Assembly (NCBI RefSeq): GCF_003076755.1
Contig: NZ_QDKM01000003.1
Location: 62,001 to 126,000, forward strand
DNA: 64,000 nucleotides
Reading direction: 5' to 3'
From: Pararhodobacter oceanensis
GTDB taxonomy: Bacteria; Pseudomonadota; Alphaproteobacteria; Rhodobacterales; Rhodobacteraceae
In this document: positions 20,369-28,684 of the stretch, piece after piece
Numbering within the stretch: position 1 is the first letter of the stretch
How the letters are laid out: each line of letters starts with the position of its first letter
Position numbers and translations under genes: made by a program
Notes under the pieces: generated by a model
What the model was told of the DNA's origin: nothing
What the model saw: only the letters and a program-made list of their open reading frames with translations
Database searches by the model: none

Positions 20369-22264
20369 TTAAGCGACAAACAGCTCTCGCGCCTCAGACC
20401 CATTGAGCACCGGACGCGCCGCGGCAAAACCCGTGCCCGCCGCCAGCTCTGGGAACAGCCCGAGCAATTCCGCCCGCGTCTGCGTATCCAGCGCATTGAG
20501 CACTGCCTCGCTGGGTTGGAAGCTCTCGCTCCAGCTACCCTCGGCGCGGATGATCTCATGGCGCTCGCACATCACATGGATATAGCTGACCGCCTCAGGC
20601 GCCTCTTGCGTCACCTCCGGCAGTGCCAAGAGATCCGCCGCCGTCACCAGAACCTCACGCTCACCGAACATCAGCTCCGCCCGTGCGCCGGTCACCAGCA
20701 TCCGGTGGCGCGGCGAGACGCGGAGGTCCTGCTCGGGCAGACCGGCGCCCAAAGCGCCCGCAGCGATGCGGATCGGCGCCGCCTGCGGGCAGGTCGCCAG
20801 TTCCGCCGCCGCCAAATCACGCCGCCCAACCCAAGCCAGCGGCTGATAGCCGTTGTCGCGGGTCAGCACCTTGTCGCCCGGCGCAAGATCCTCGACCGCG
20901 CGTTTGCCGCGCAAAGTGTCGATCATTGTGCCCGGGGTAAAGCAGATGATTTCCTCGAAATTCTCGAAATCCATCCGCGAGCCATCGGGGAAGTTCACAT
21001 AGCCGGTGTAGGTCGTGGTGCCATCGCCATTGTCGGTCGAATGGGTCACCGTCACCGCCGGAGCCGGATCACCGGGCGCGGGCTCGGGCAAGACCAGCGT
21101 GTCAAACCCGTCCGACCCATTCACCGTGCCAGTGGTCGTGGTGACAATCTCGACACGGTCATCACCCGAGCCCAGATCCAGCCGCTCGATTTCCTCGAAA
21201 CTGGCGGTCGAACCCTCATTCGACATCGTGCCTTCTTCGTCGCCGGTATAGATGACCTGCACATCCTCGGTGATCGCCGAGCCATCAAGCGTATCGCCCG
21301 CGGTCTCGCCGGTCTCGCCGCCGACAATCTCGTGATTGCCAAAACCGTCGAAGACCTGAAACACATCATCGCCCGAGCCGCCGTAAGCCAGATCATTGCC
21401 GCCATCGAGCACCAGCGTGTCATTGCCAAAGCCTGGCTCTGCCGCATCACCGGGCGCGCGTCCGCCAAGGTCACCGTCAATCGCATCGCCGTAGAGTGTG
21501 TCATCGCCCTCGCCGCCGACCAGCAGATCATCACCGGCGCCGCCGATCAGCTTGTCATCACCCGCATTGCCATAAAGCGAGTCGTTGCCGTCATTGCCCC
21601 AGATCGAGTCGTGACCCTCGCCGCCCATGATCGAATCGTCGCCATCATTCCCGAACAGGAAGTCATTGCCCGCGCCGCCGTCGATCGTGTCATCGCCGCG
21701 CCCGCCGCGAACGGTGTCATCACCGCTATGCGCATCAATCCGGCTGCCGGAATTATCGGCTTCATCGCCCTGCGCATCGGTATAGCCCGATTCAATACTG
21801 TCATTCCCATCGGTGCCATCTACCACCCCGTCAGGGATCGCCTCACCGGCGCTGGTCGCCGCCATATCGCTCTCGTCCAGCGGGCCTGCGCCGCTGACAC
21901 TCTCCAGCACCACCGCCGAGGTATCGCCATAGCTCGCGGCACCATCCATGAACATGCCGACCTTCGAGCCATCGCTCAGGGTGACAATGGCAAAGGGCAC
22001 ACCCGTCGCCGTCGAGGCGCCATTGTCGTAATGCACCGTGGTCGCATAGGTGGTGATCTCGGTGACACTCAGCGGCGCGCCATTGACCGCCACCGTATCG
22101 CCCACCGCCAGAACATCCGGCGTCGCGGTGGTCGTCTCATAGCTGTCCGAGCTGGAATCGATCCCGCCGCCCGGGCTGCCTGCGCCATTGAAGGTCAGCG
22201 TTTCACCCGCTGCGGTCGGGCCGCCCGGGGACAATGTCAGGGTGTTCAGAGATAGGTCACTCAT
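20369..22264 (-). CDS. RTX calcium-binding protein with C-terminal Hint domain
   Basis: A 631-residue acidic protein. Residues 1-140 are Ser/Thr/Asp-rich without a recognised domain. Residues about 148-310 carry repeated nonapeptide-like units (GGAGNDFLF, GGEGHDSIW, GNAGDDKLI, GGAGDDLLV, GGEGDDTLY) of the hemolysin-type calcium-binding kind. From Cys441 (CFTPGTMIDT) to about 600 there is a Hint domain of the type common in Rhodobacteraceae. Export by a type I system and self-processing at the Hint domain are expected from the family but not shown here, and no ABC exporter gene is adjacent. GAGGAAAAG precedes the ATG. Confidence 0.88.
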   Translation of the reverse strand: MSDLSLNTLTLSPGGPTAAGETLTFNGAGSPGGGIDSSSDSYETTTATPDVLAVGDTVAVNGAPLSVTEITTYATTVHYDNGASTATGVPFAIVTLSDGSKVGMFMDGAASYGDTSAVVLESVSGAGPLDESDMAATSAGEAIPDGVVDGTDGNDSIESGYTDAQGDEADNSGSRIDAHSGDDTVRGGRGDDTIDGGAGNDFLFGNDGDDSIMGGEGHDSIWGNDGNDSLYGNAGDDKLIGGAGDDLLVGGEGDDTLYGDAIDGDLGGRAPGDAAEPGFGNDTLVLDGGNDLAYGGSGDDVFQVFDGFGNHEIVGGETGETAGDTLDGSAITEDVQVIYTGDEEGTMSNEGSTASFEEIERLDLGSGDDRVEIVTTTTGTVNGSDGFDTLVLPEPAPGDPAPAVTVTHSTDNGDGTTTYTGYVNFPDGSRMDFENFEEIICFTPGTMIDTLRGKRAVEDLAPGDKVLTRDNGYQPLAWVGRRDLAAAELATCPQAAPIRIAAGALGAGLPEQDLRVSPRHRMLVTGARAELMFGEREVLVTAADLLALPEVTQEAPEAVSYIHVMCERHEIIRAEGSWSESFQPSEAVLNALDTQTRAELLGLFPELAAGTGFAAARPVLNGSEARELFVA

Positions 22265-24896: not shown

Positions 24897-25364
24897 TCAC
24901 CGCTCCAGCCCTAACAACCGATCCAGCGACAGCCGCCCCGGCCCATAGGCCAGCAGCACCAGAAAGCTTGCCGCCCACAGCCCGTGGGTGACCCAAGCGT
25001 TCGGATAGACGAAAATCTGGATCACCAGCGTCATCCCCAAAAGCGCCAGCGCCGAGAGGCGGGTGAACAGCCCCACGATCAGCAGCACCGAAAACACATG
25101 TTCGGCAATCGTCGCCATCACCGCGGCCAGCGCCGAGGGGATGATCGGCAGCGCGTATTCATGCTCGAACAGGAACCATGTCGAATCCGCAATCGCAAAG
25201 CCCTCGACCTTGGTCTGGCCGGATAGGAAAAACACCCAAGCCACGAACACCCGCGCCGCCAGCCCGACCAGATCCTTGGGCACCAGCCGCCCGATCAGCG
25301 CATTCAACGCCTGCACTCTTCCGCGCAGCCCGAGGGCGGCTGGGGTTAAACTGGAGTCGGTCAT
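24897..25364 (-). CDS. DoxX-family membrane protein of the bufferin operon
   Basis: A 155-residue integral membrane protein with four predicted helices. Motifs are [20 protein letters not shown] and [25 protein letters not shown], typical of DoxX. The ATG at 25364 overlaps the bufC stop (ATGA) and has AGGAGA upstream. The frame continues further upstream without family-like sequence. DoxX genes commonly accompany DUF692/DUF2063 pairs. A role in redox handling or membrane steps of peptide maturation is inferred, not shown. Confidence 0.9.
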
Positions 25365-26104
25365 AGGGTCTCTCCTGTGATAGCGGTGATCAGCCCGTGT
25401 TTCAGCAATAGCGCCAGTATCCGTGTCGGGTCTCCGTGCCCTGCGGCCGCGCCGAGACTCCGCCCCGCGTGCAACTCGCGCAGCACCGCGCAATCTGCGG
25501 CCTCCAGCGGAATCACCGGCACCTCAAACGCCGGCAAACGCGCGATCAGGGCAAATTCGGCGCCCGTGGGCAGTGGCTGCGCCTCGGCGCCGGGCTGGTT
25601 GTTGGTCCAGATGCTGACCACCGGCCAGGCGCTGCCAAAGGCCGCCACCGAGGGCGCCAGTGTCAGCCGCAGCCCCGAGGGATCACCGCGCGTCAGCGCC
25701 GCCGGATCGGCGACGGGCGCATCCGCCGCGTGATAGGCAAGCCCGCGCGCCCATTCCAGCCGCGCCACATCGCCCAGATAGGGCAGACCGGCGGCAGGCG
25801 GGAACCCCTCGATAAACCCTGCGAACTCCGCGCCCCAGTCGATCAGAACCGGCGTTTGCGGCGGATGACTGGCGGCAAATGCCCGCCCCATCGCAGTGAA
25901 AAACGCTGCCCCGACCAACCGCTCGACCACCGCAAACCGCTGCGACAGGGCGCTGCACAGCCCGTGCTGCACGTTGTTGCGGTAGACCAGAAACCGCCGC
26001 TCTACCGCATCCGCCTGCGCCAGCCCGTCCGGCGTGGCCGTGGTCCAAAGCGCGTTGTGAAATCGTGCCTGCATCGCCGCGTGAGAATCAAGCAGCGCAG
26101 TCAT
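25361..26104 (-). CDS. bufC: DUF2063 partner protein, BufC-like
   Basis: A 247-residue protein with the N-terminal DUF2063 domain (about 8-100; [18 protein letters not shown] is diagnostic). It is annotated in databases as putative DNA-binding, but it serves as the partner of the MNIO enzyme, probably recruiting the precursor peptide. The ATG at 26104 lies inside the end of bufB (17-bp overlap), with AAAGG upstream; a GTG directly precedes it. It is translationally coupled to both neighbours. Confidence 0.9.
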
Positions 26105-26945
26105 CACGCGCGCCTTTCAAGATCCCATCGGCGCGCGCAGCCTCGGCCTGTAGCACCGCGAATTCGGGAATATCATTATCCCATTCCACCAGCGCAGGCA
26201 GCGGACCGGCGCGCGCGATCACCTCGGCGAATAGCGTCCAGACCGGATCAGCGACGGGGCGCGCGTGGCTGTCGATCAATAAGGGACCGTCCGGCAGTTC
26301 CTCGCTGTCATGCCCCGCAAGATGGATCTCGCCGACCAGTTCCAGCGGGAACTCGGCCAGATAGGCGCGCGGATCAAACCGGTGGTTGGTGGCGCTGACA
26401 AAGACGTTGTTGACGTCCAAGAGCAGCCCGCAACCGCTGCGCCGCGCGATCTCGCGCAGGAAATCGACCTCACCCCAAGTGCTATCCTCAAAAGTGACAT
26501 AGGTCGCGGGGTTCTCCAGCAACATGCGTCGGCCCAGCGCCTCTTGGGTCTGTTCGATATGGGCGCAAATCACCGCCAGCGTCTCATCGGTATAGGGCAG
26601 CGGCAGTAGGTCATTGAGCCAAGCTGCCCCATGCGAGGACCACGCCAGATGCTCGGAAAAACTCGCCGGTTGATAGCACTCGATCAAGACCCGCAAACGG
26701 GCCAGATGATCGCGGTCCAACGCGCCCGCGCCACCAATGGACAGGCCAACCCCGTGCAGCGAGATCGGATAGTCGGCGCGTAACCGCTCCAGCATCGCAT
26801 GCGGCGCCCCGCCCGCGCCCATGTAATTCTCGGCGTGGACCTCATAGAAACCGGTGGCCTCGGGGCTGGCGAGGATCTGCGGGTAATGCTCGGGCTTGAA
26901 GCCAAGGCCGGAACGGGCGGGCAGCGAAGTCGGGATCAACAGCAT
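26088..26945 (-). CDS. bufB: DUF692 multinuclear non-heme iron oxidase (MNIO), BufB-like
   Basis: A 285-residue TIM-barrel enzyme of the DUF692 (MNIO) family. Members modify cysteines of peptide precursors using iron and O2, giving thiooxazole-type groups in bufferins. Candidate metal ligands are in EVHAEN (35-40), His64, SEH (97-99), LEN (143-145), DVNN (177-180), EIHLAGH (206-212), DSH (225-227) and EWD (254-256). GGAGGA precedes the ATG. It follows bufA after 86 bases containing a hairpin. Its product is predicted to act on BufA in the cytoplasm before export. Confidence 0.93.
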
Positions 26946-26987
26946 AGGGTCCTCCGGCGGCGGGCAAAATCATTGCGGAAAGGCTCG

Positions 26988-27018
26988 AAAACGGGGGCAG
27001 GCACGCTCGCCCGCCCCC
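26988..27018 (-). terminator. Partial terminator/attenuator between bufA and bufB
   Basis: On the transcribed minus strand, GGGGGCGGGC pairs with GCCTGCCCCC (one G-U) around the loop GAGCGT. CG and then TTTT follow. It is placed to lower transcription of the enzyme genes relative to the peptide gene. Confidence 0.6.
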
Positions 27019-27031
27019 AAAGACGCGCGGC

Positions 27032-27337
27032 TCAGGCCGGCAGGTCGCGGTTCATGCTGACATAGGAGCCGTCGCGCATCGTGCCGTCCTCCATCGCCGG
27101 CATCTCGATCGAGTTGCAGGTGCCCGCCGGAACAAGCGTCCAGGCGTTGCCCTGATAATCCATCGTCGAGGTGCCCGCACAGGTGGTGCCCGGTCCGGCG
27201 GCGCAATCGTTCTCACCCGCCATCGAGACGCCAAAGCAGCGCTCCATATCGGCGTGTTCCTCGGCCTGCACCGCGCCTCCGGCGAGGGTCAAAGCGGCAG
27301 CCACCGAAGCGGCAAGAAGTTTGGTCGAATTGTCCAT
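27032..27337 (-). CDS. bufA: Bufferin-type precursor peptide (DUF2282), BufA-like
   Basis: A 101-residue secreted peptide precursor. The signal peptide has a hydrophobic core [15 protein letters not shown] and likely cleavage after AVQA (residue 25). The mature part has exactly four cysteines (34, 45, 53, 74) in the family pattern ERCFGV, ENDCAA, TTCAGT, GTCNS. Bufferins of this family are copper-binding peptides in which two of the four cysteines are converted by the MNIO enzyme. AGGAGAGAG precedes the ATG at 27337. It is the first gene of the operon and is divergent from the sigF-like gene. The residues GPGTTC depart from the NGHSC-like version I recall for related peptides. Confidence 0.92.
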
Positions 27338-27388
27338 GGGTCTCTCTCTCCTGTTGAAGCCTGCGGTGTTGCGGGCCTGACTGACAGG

Positions 27389-27421
27389 ACGCGGGGACGC
27401 CGCGCTGCGTTACGCGGTTCA
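27389..27421 (-). promoter_or_regulatory. Candidate ECF-sigma promoter of bufA
   Basis: On the minus strand, TGAACC (27421-27416) and CGTC (27399-27396) are separated by exactly 16 bases. This fits the common ECF pattern of an AAC-containing -35 and a CGTC -10. The predicted start would give a leader of about 50 nt before bufA. The divergent sigma gene is the natural candidate to use it. Confidence 0.5.
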
Positions 27422-27506
27422 CGCAGGCGTGACATCCGCCGGTTTTTCCGTGATGTTTGGGACAGGCGATGTAACAACACTTGCAAATGACCCGTAAGGA
27501 GACTGC

Positions 27507-28055
27507 GTGACCACGCCAGATGAGCCAAGCTGGGAAGAGCTGATGCGCGCAGCAAACCGGGGCGAGCAGCGCCCCTATGCGCAGCTTTTGCAGGCGATCA
27601 CGCCAGTGGTGCGCGGCATAGTGCGGGCACGTGGCAGCGGGCTCGGACCCGAGGGTTGCGAGGATGTGGTGCAAGAGGTGCTCTTGACGATTCATCTCAA
27701 ACGACAGACATGGCGCGAGGATGCACCGCTGCGGCCTTGGCTCTATGCGGTGACCCGTCACAAGGTGATCGACGCGTTTCGCGCGCGGGGCAAACGCATC
27801 GACCTGCCGGTCGATGATTTCCTCGAGGTTCTGGCGGCTCCGCCCGGACCCGACCCGCTGGCGGCACGAGATATGGACCGCGTGATCAATGAGTTGGACC
27901 CGCGCGCCGCGCAGATCGTGCGCGCGATTGGCATCGACGGCGAGAGCGCCGCAGACACTGGCGCCCGTCTGGGTATGAGTGAGGGGGCGGTGCGCGTTGC
28001 CCTGCACAGGGCGCTGAAATCTCTCGCAAACCTGCGGGAAAGGATGATCGAATGA
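27507..28055 (+). CDS. sigF: ECF RNA polymerase sigma factor, SigF-like
   Basis: A 182-residue sigma-70 family protein with only regions 2 and 4. Region 2 (about 25-90) includes CEDVVQEVLLTIHLKRQTW and PWLYAVTRHKVIDAFR. Region 4 (about 128-180) includes DGESAADTGARLGMSEGAVRVALHRALKSL. The GTG at 27507 has AAGGAG seven bases upstream. Its stop overlaps the nrsF start (ATGA). By pairing with a DUF1109 gene and a DUF2282/692/2063 operon, it matches the Caulobacter SigF arrangement that responds to heavy metals. Confidence 0.93.
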   Translation: MTTPDEPSWEELMRAANRGEQRPYAQLLQAITPVVRGIVRARGSGLGPEGCEDVVQEVLLTIHLKRQTWREDAPLRPWLYAVTRHKVIDAFRARGKRIDLPVDDFLEVLAAPPGPDPLAARDMDRVINELDPRAAQIVRAIGIDGESAADTGARLGMSEGAVRVALHRALKSLANLRERMIE

Positions 28056-28684
28056 GAACCGAGGATCTGATCGCCGTTCTGGCCGCCGACACCGCCCCGC
28101 AGACCACGCCGGGGCAGCGGATGCTGCGCGCCCTGCCACCGGCGGCGGTGTTGACGCTGCTAGCGCTGGTCATGGTCTGGCAGGTGCGCCCCGATCTGGC
28201 GCAGATCATGGCCTCGCCCGCGGCGCTGAAAACCATCGTGCCGTCGCTGTTCGGGCTGGTGACACTCTGGCTCGGGCTCGGTGTAATGCGCCCCGAATCG
28301 CGGGCGCGGGTTCAATGGCTAGTGCTTGGCGCAATGCTGGCGATCAGTGCCGCGGTCCTCGGCGCGGTGTTGGCAACGGTCGGCCTGTCGGGGCTGATCG
28401 CGGCGCTGGATACGCCCTCGCTGTTGATCTGTTTCCTGTCGATCCCGCTCTTGTCGGCTTTGCCCTTGGCGGCGATCTTTTGGGCGATGGCCTCGGGCGC
28501 GCCCGCCCATCCGCGCCACGCCGGAATCGCTGCGGGCGCTCTGGCCGGAGCGATTGGCTCGGCCGCCTATTCGCTGCATTGCCCCGAGGATTCGCTGCTG
28601 TTTTGCCTGCCCGCTTACGGCGCAAATATGGTGATCGTGGCGGTGATCGGCGGGTTGCTCGCGCCCCGAATCTTGCGCTGGTAA
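28052..28684 (+). CDS. nrsF: NrsF-type anti-sigma factor (DUF1109), six-helix membrane protein
   Basis: A 210-residue inner-membrane protein. A short cytoplasmic N-terminus (MRTEDLIAVLAAD) precedes six predicted helices (about 30-48, 62-79, 90-110, 118-142, 158-175, 188-205). Cysteines are at 127, 177 (in SLHCPEDS) and 185. In Caulobacter NrsF, two conserved cysteines, recalled as 131 and 181, are needed for metal-triggered release of SigF; 127 and 177 here have the same spacing. It is co-translated with the sigma gene. Confidence 0.9.
   Translation: MRTEDLIAVLAADTAPQTTPGQRMLRALPPAAVLTLLALVMVWQVRPDLAQIMASPAALKTIVPSLFGLVTLWLGLGVMRPESRARVQWLVLGAMLAISAAVLGAVLATVGLSGLIAALDTPSLLICFLSIPLLSALPLAAIFWAMASGAPAHPRHAGIAAGALAGAIGSAAYSLHCPEDSLLFCLPAYGANMVIVAVIGGLLAPRILRW

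Follow-up and report, generated by a model that had tools for sequence, protein, structure and literature searches.

A 64,000-nucleotide (nt) stretch of the Pararhodobacter oceanensis genome (Rhodobacteraceae; contig NZ_QDKM01000003.1, positions 62,001 to 126,000), hereafter the window, contains at positions 24897-28684 a compact locus in which bufA, bufB, bufC and doxX are transcribed in this order from the minus strand, and sigF followed by nrsF diverges from them on the plus strand (Table 1). A preliminary description of this DNA had placed the six genes at these coordinates and strands and had assigned products to DUF2282, DUF692, DUF2063 and DUF1109; the placement is correct, and in searches with hidden Markov models all six proteins score above the Pfam cut-offs of their respective families. 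Among NCBIfam models, the MNIO_BufB equivalog cut-off is exceeded by BufB (NF050167, 385.2 vs. 310) and NF009165 is passed by SigF (212.4 vs. a cut-off of 198), and no NCBIfam model matched BufA. BufB also matched 3bww (phmmer, 1.4e-42), and no sequence match to BufC was found among solved structures at E-values up to 0.1. The secreted-type four-cysteine peptide proposed earlier is borne out in its four cysteines, and the hydrophobic N-terminus of BufA, ending in ...AVQA, resembles by eye a Sec signal. The coupled starts also claimed for the operon are present at bufB/bufC, which overlap by 20 nt (from GTG 26107) or 17 nt (from ATG 26104), and at bufC/doxX, which overlap by 4 nt, but not at bufA/bufB, which are separated by an 86-nt gap with a strong hairpin inside; sigF and nrsF overlap by 4 nt as well.

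Table 1. Features of the locus and a possible further target. Coordinates are positions within the window unless another contig is named; paired values are Pfam scores and cut-offs in bits; aa, amino acids.
Feature	Position	Strand	Description
bufA	27032-27337	-	Buf1/DUF2282 precursor, 101 aa, Cys 34/45/53/74; PF10048 86.1/22.4
Hairpin	26993-27018	-	13 nt past bufA stop; stem of 10 bp (one G-U pair), loop of 6 nt; then G and TTTT (26988-26991)
bufB	26088-26945	-	MNIO (DUF692) bufferin maturase, 285 aa; PF05114 MbnB_TglH_ChrH 350.6/25
bufC	25361-26107	-	DUF2063 partner protein, 248 aa, start GTG 26107 or ATG 26104; PF09836 80.8/27.2
doxX	24897-25364	-	DoxX-family membrane protein, 155 aa; PF07681 64.6/23.6
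Predicted SigF promoter of bufA	27388-27413	-	GTAACG-N16-CGTC; -10 end 50 nt before ATG
Predicted SigF promoter of sigF	27471-27496	+	GTAACA-N16-CGTA; -10 end 10 nt before GTG
sigF	27507-28055	+	Extracytoplasmic function (ECF) sigma factor (ECF16/SigF-like), 182 aa, GTG start; Sigma70 region 4 42.5/25.7, region 2 37.9/24
nrsF	28052-28684	+	DUF1109/NrsF membrane anti-sigma factor, 210 aa, Cys 127/177; PF06532 138.5/26.8
msrP homologue	L137:605-2133 (own genome, contig C3, about 60 kb before the window)	-	PF00174

The arrangement was compared with 110 other loci, 80 of them being the best of 578 retrieved with the MNIO protein and 30 coming from a DUF2282 search of family genomes, the latter being about 3 kb each and stopping short of doxX. 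At all 110 loci bufA immediately precedes bufB, at 108 bufB precedes bufC, and of the 80 MNIO-fetched loci 76 show all four genes as bufA-bufB-bufC-doxX; since this order is kept across the compared loci, the gene set is not due to chance. All four BufA cysteines are kept in each of 116 aligned rows (window locus included; 110 distinct), and BufB agrees at all 29 His, Asp, Glu, Asn or Cys columns that are at least 95% conserved in 110 other rows. In NrsF, cysteine occupies each of two columns in 68 of 69 aligned rows (window locus included; 65 distinct), and C127 and C177 of the window protein sit in these columns, 50 residues apart. Two tandem bufA-like genes stand ahead of bufB at L030, L032, L034, L035, L040 and other rhizobial loci.

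A SigF match is present in 69 of the 110 compared loci. Among 149 sampled genomes of the family, own genome included, DUF2282 was detected in 106 and NrsF in 23 (22 above the cut-off). Positions compared by hand place DUF2282 at most 5 kb from NrsF in 13 of these 23 genomes and on a different contig in five, with no DUF2282 in the remaining five; as one of the different-contig genomes (G118) has SigF and a partial NrsF match adjoining bufA (L098), the count of 13 is slightly too low. Coupling to SigF is accordingly found in a minority of the bufferin operons of this family. In the phylum sample, DUF2282 was found in 63 of 299 genomes. Among the loci drawn from this sample, L177, L184 and L191 have a gene other than bufB after bufA. 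A search of the own genome for further MNIO or DUF2282 genes returned one match of each, i.e. no second operon.

The 169-nt gap between bufA and sigF holds two predicted SigF-type promoters in back-to-back orientation, which are two of the 15 matches that the pattern GTAAC-N16/17-CGTM has in the 4.08-Mb genome. The pair recurs in relatives. Of 68 divergent gaps, 62 are distinct (window locus and NrsF-search loci included; gaps with tandem bufA genes can span the first bufA), and 55 of these have a site facing bufA, 61 have one facing sigF, and 54 carry the pair. By comparison, 1194 same-length stretches elsewhere in the same loci gave a site in 20 cases on one strand and in 17 on the other, and 1240 shuffled gaps gave 19. 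The spacer of the bufA site is 16 nt in 55 of 55 cases, with 15 and 16 permitted, and the fourth base of the -10 box is A in all 61 sigF sites and C in 10 of the 55 bufA sites, the window locus being among the 10. For the 47 loci in which no divergent sigF was found, a slightly relaxed pattern (GTAAC or GAAAC) detects a site ahead of bufA in 16, several of the 47 being so short that a farther sigF would escape detection; the 16 include six loci (L020, L024, L027, L028, L031, L045) with SigF downstream of doxX, each with a SigF-type site before bufA.

The genes, their families and order, the conserved cysteines and the conserved promoter pairs make it very probable that bufA-bufB-bufC-doxX form a bufferin operon of the Buf1 type and are under the control of a divergent ECF16-type SigF, whose membrane anti-sigma factor is NrsF. 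Some observations weigh against this reading. NrsF, BufC and DoxX remain under NCBIfam equivalog cut-offs (85.2 vs. 300 for NF042994, 61.4 vs. 142 for HvfC and 54.1 vs. 80 for HvfX, respectively), and they are therefore to be taken as family members rather than certified orthologues. The exact bufA site is missing in 7 and the sigF site in 1 of the 62 divergent gaps. The promoter pattern read backwards, as a control, has 210 genome matches vs. 15; raw motif counts consequently depend strongly on base composition, so that the promoter argument rests on the position of the pair and its conservation. With these conserved back-to-back sites, the earlier proposal that the operon stands under the facing sigma factor has gained support at the sequence level.

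The system is not new, as its arrangement has already been published for Caulobacter vibrioides, and the preliminary description, which appears to be right, thus describes what is known from a locus of the same layout. In CC3252-CC3257, the bufferin-1 locus, sigF-nrsF is divergent from genes of the DUF2282, DUF692, DUF2063 and DoxX families, and the cluster is SigF-dependent and metal-responsive (PMC3511200). By published description, the two loci share the six families, their order and divergence, a SigF-type promoter pair and two NrsF cysteines 50 residues apart. The Caulobacter site reads GTAACC-N16-CGAA, both promoters having been shown to be needed (PMC3511200), whereas the -10 boxes in the window are CGTC and CGTA; BufA has 101 aa compared with 93 in CC3254, and Caulobacter has two operons with DUF2282 and MNIO genes where this genome has one match of each. 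Buf1 clusters with a sigma factor and NrsF have also been described as a class (PMC12452194). The gig operon (gold-induced genes) of Cupriavidus metallidurans is the same cluster according to PMC8224329 and a bufferin cluster according to PMC12452194, and its likeness to the window locus rests on the descriptions in those papers.

For the signal, the chemistry, the export and the copper binding, characterised relatives supply the model. Excess copper, another thiophilic metal or an oxidant would act on the two NrsF cysteines, whereupon NrsF would free SigF, and SigF would transcribe bufABC-doxX and sigF-nrsF from the back-to-back predicted promoters. In Caulobacter, SigF is freed and SigF-dependent genes change in their basal level when NrsF C131/C181 are replaced (PMC3511200); C127/C177 are likened to this pair by their 50-residue spacing and the published description, the Caulobacter sequence lying outside the alignment. 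A less probable but still appreciable alternative is that SigF/NrsF mainly senses oxidants (hypochlorite, reactive oxygen species) or thiol-reactive metals (Cr, Cd), and that the bufferin operon forms one arm of an envelope response to thiol/methionine stress, not of a response to copper. It draws on ECF16 relatives that answer hypochlorite or reactive oxygen species and have methionine sulfoxide reductases among their common targets (PMC8315932), and on Caulobacter SigF, which responds to dichromate and cadmium (PMC3511200). The Brucella ECF16 pair BcrS/AbcS resembles the window pair in joining an ECF sigma factor to a DUF1109 anti-sigma factor, which has six transmembrane segments in Brucella, with two conserved cysteines 50 residues apart; it differs in its hypochlorite response and in an adjoining gene for a methionine-rich peptide (PMC8315932), and that paper mentions neither DUF2282 nor bufferin. 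Against oxidant sensing as the main function, copper induces the regulon in Caulobacter, including all six genes of the locus of the same layout (two values only by a looser test), and the sigF mutant there is sensitive to copper, whereas its sensitivity to chromate or cadmium is not increased (PMC8224329). Copper and oxidant signals are, moreover, not mutually exclusive.

Also in favour of the oxidant alternative, the contig that holds the locus carries an msrP homologue preceded by a one-mismatch site. The gene after it encodes a ferric-reductase-like membrane protein (PF01794), and the two are probably msrPQ. An exact SigF-type site precedes msrP in 4 of 16 NrsF-carrying genomes (own genome and 15 of 21 searched; G129, below the cut-off, left out) and in none of 19 genomes with DUF2282 but without NrsF (19 of 21 searched, in list order, the less complete G008 and G022 being skipped). 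To the points weighing against the main reading are added the mismatch of the own-genome site (GAAAC-CGTA, 74 nt upstream) and the sites with at most one mismatch, found in 11 of the 16 vs. 9 of the 19 genomes with no clear separation. The pattern G(T/A)AAC...CG(A/T)(A/T) separates 9/16 from 0/19, having been chosen after the rows were viewed, and is only suggestive. By analogy with Caulobacter, msrPQ may be under SigF as well, on evidence that is suggestive at best. In 7 of the 19 genomes without NrsF (L238, L240, L244, L248, L251, L252, L253), GTTAC-N15/16-CGTG occurs at a similar place before msrP, and is perhaps the site of another sigma factor.

Beside the 15 genome sites of the GTAAC-N16/17-CGTM type, which were checked for downstream open reading frames, there are 27 with CGAM. 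A CDP-alcohol phosphatidyltransferase gene (PF01066) with a site 20 nt upstream (L123:1501-1526, own genome, contig C2) was rejected as a target: any site was found in only 2 of 14 homologues, at other distances (14 of 28 matches passing 1e-8 in 21 NrsF-carrying genomes). An identical 26-nt CGAA-type site recurs at five places (G000 C4:69, C8:112554, C9:66, C13:69 and C21:8986), three of them less than 100 bases from a contig start, and it is probably a repeat at contig breaks rather than a promoter.

The hairpin in the bufA-bufB gap appears to be a conserved feature of related operons. Stems were sought within 60 nt downstream of the bufA stop and scored by subtracting penalties from the number of paired bases, with loops of more than 10 nt and stems beyond 60 nt uncounted. 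A score of at least 8 was reached in 93 of 108 distinct loci, compared with 1.2% of 864 bufB stretches, 4.7% of 107 stretches upstream of bufA, 2.5% of 432 within bufA and 4.4% of 864 shuffles of the same stretches. The stem arms vary in sequence among loci, while the stem itself persists in most relatives of the family; the stems having been selected for pairing, the table of pairs is not independent proof, and the claim rests on the controls. The 8 nt past the stem contain on average 2.26 T vs. about 1.2 expected from composition, with no T in 14 of the 93 loci, and the hairpin is also found at loci without SigF. It fits a candidate leaky terminator or RNA stabiliser favouring the precursor over the enzyme, and would thus lower the expression of the maturase relative to BufA. 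A hairpin that lacks any regulatory function and stems from the high G+C content of these intergenic regions is improbable; the stems are indeed G+C rich, and the minimum free energy of the window hairpin has a modest z-score (-1.8, vs. mononucleotide shuffles), but the contrast of 93 of 108 loci with the four controls argues against composition. Also in keeping with the lack of a role is the spread of the stem in 30 loci taken from the best DUF2282 matches of the phylum search, with stems to 70 nt counted, where the score was at least 8 in 7 of 7 loci of the same family (own included), 5 of 15 in other families of the class and 1 of 8 in other classes. Being weak outside the family, the hairpin is not a universal bufferin feature. 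No report of it was found among the papers listed in literature searches, and the words hairpin and terminator are absent from PMC12452194.

A second feature concerns the start of sigF. The start codon lies 8-14 nt past the end of its own -10 box in 53 of 61 distinct gaps, start codons of relatives being those chosen by script as nearest to the alignment, and 10 nt past it in the window locus (27471-27507). Transcripts usually begin 5-8 nt after the -10 box, which implies a leader of a few nucleotides and leaves AAGGAG, at 27496-27501 ahead of the sigF GTG, upstream of the transcript. By this spacing, sigF would be translated from a nearly leaderless mRNA. The mapped SigF-dependent transcript of Caulobacter CC2907 begins 7 nt ahead of the start codon, so such short leaders exist. 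A downstream sigF start at Met13 was rejected, since this residue is Leu in many relatives and the preceding residues are conserved within groups. A nearly leaderless sigF was not found reported among the papers listed in a literature search on ECF16/DUF1109 sigma factors, nor in passages of PMC4842269. The hairpin and the short leader may be joined in one tentative reading, which is given somewhat less than an even chance: in operons of Rhodobacteraceae and many rhizobia, a hairpin directly behind bufA, conserved in structure and variable in sequence, would serve as a leaky terminator or 3' stabiliser and raise precursor far above maturase, and ECF16 sigF genes would be autoregulated through a nearly leaderless mRNA, with basal and induced transcripts translated differently. 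In this joint reading, the ribosome-binding site of sigF would lie upstream of the transcript start of its own promoter, and basal transcripts would come from another promoter.

As for the peptide itself, copper binding and cysteine modification of BufA are inferred from Caulobacter bufferin-1, which carries thiooxazoles (PMC12452194; PMC13097082), and from related peptides. The captophorins (fontiphorin, oxazolin and gonophorin) likewise involve an MNIO enzyme with a DUF2063 partner (PME1), which put 5-thiooxazole on cysteines; their precursors consist of EGKCG repeats, whereas BufA of the window has a four-cysteine DUF2282 domain (PMC13097082). By analogy, BufB with BufC would turn the two central cysteines of BufA (Cys45 and Cys53) into thiooxazoles, and the peptide would leave via Sec and sequester copper in the periplasm. 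That BufA is unmodified or otherwise modified and binds metal through free thiols, as may hold for precursors without a nearby MNIO gene (PMC12452194), is very unlikely, given a BufB above its equivalog cut-off and in agreement with all 29 strongly conserved columns, and the presence of the DUF2063 partner.

Elsewhere in the window, positions 20369-22264 (minus strand) encode a 631-aa protein with RTX calcium-binding repeats and a Hint_2 domain.

The window locus adds one more genome to the published copper-buffering peptide system. To this are added a clear promoter prediction that makes the regulation testable, the conserved hairpin and a hint of a nearly leaderless SigF transcript. The conserved hairpin would account for a surplus of peptide over enzyme, and a nearly leaderless sigF may be relevant to the weak autoregulation that has been reported for sigF of Caulobacter.

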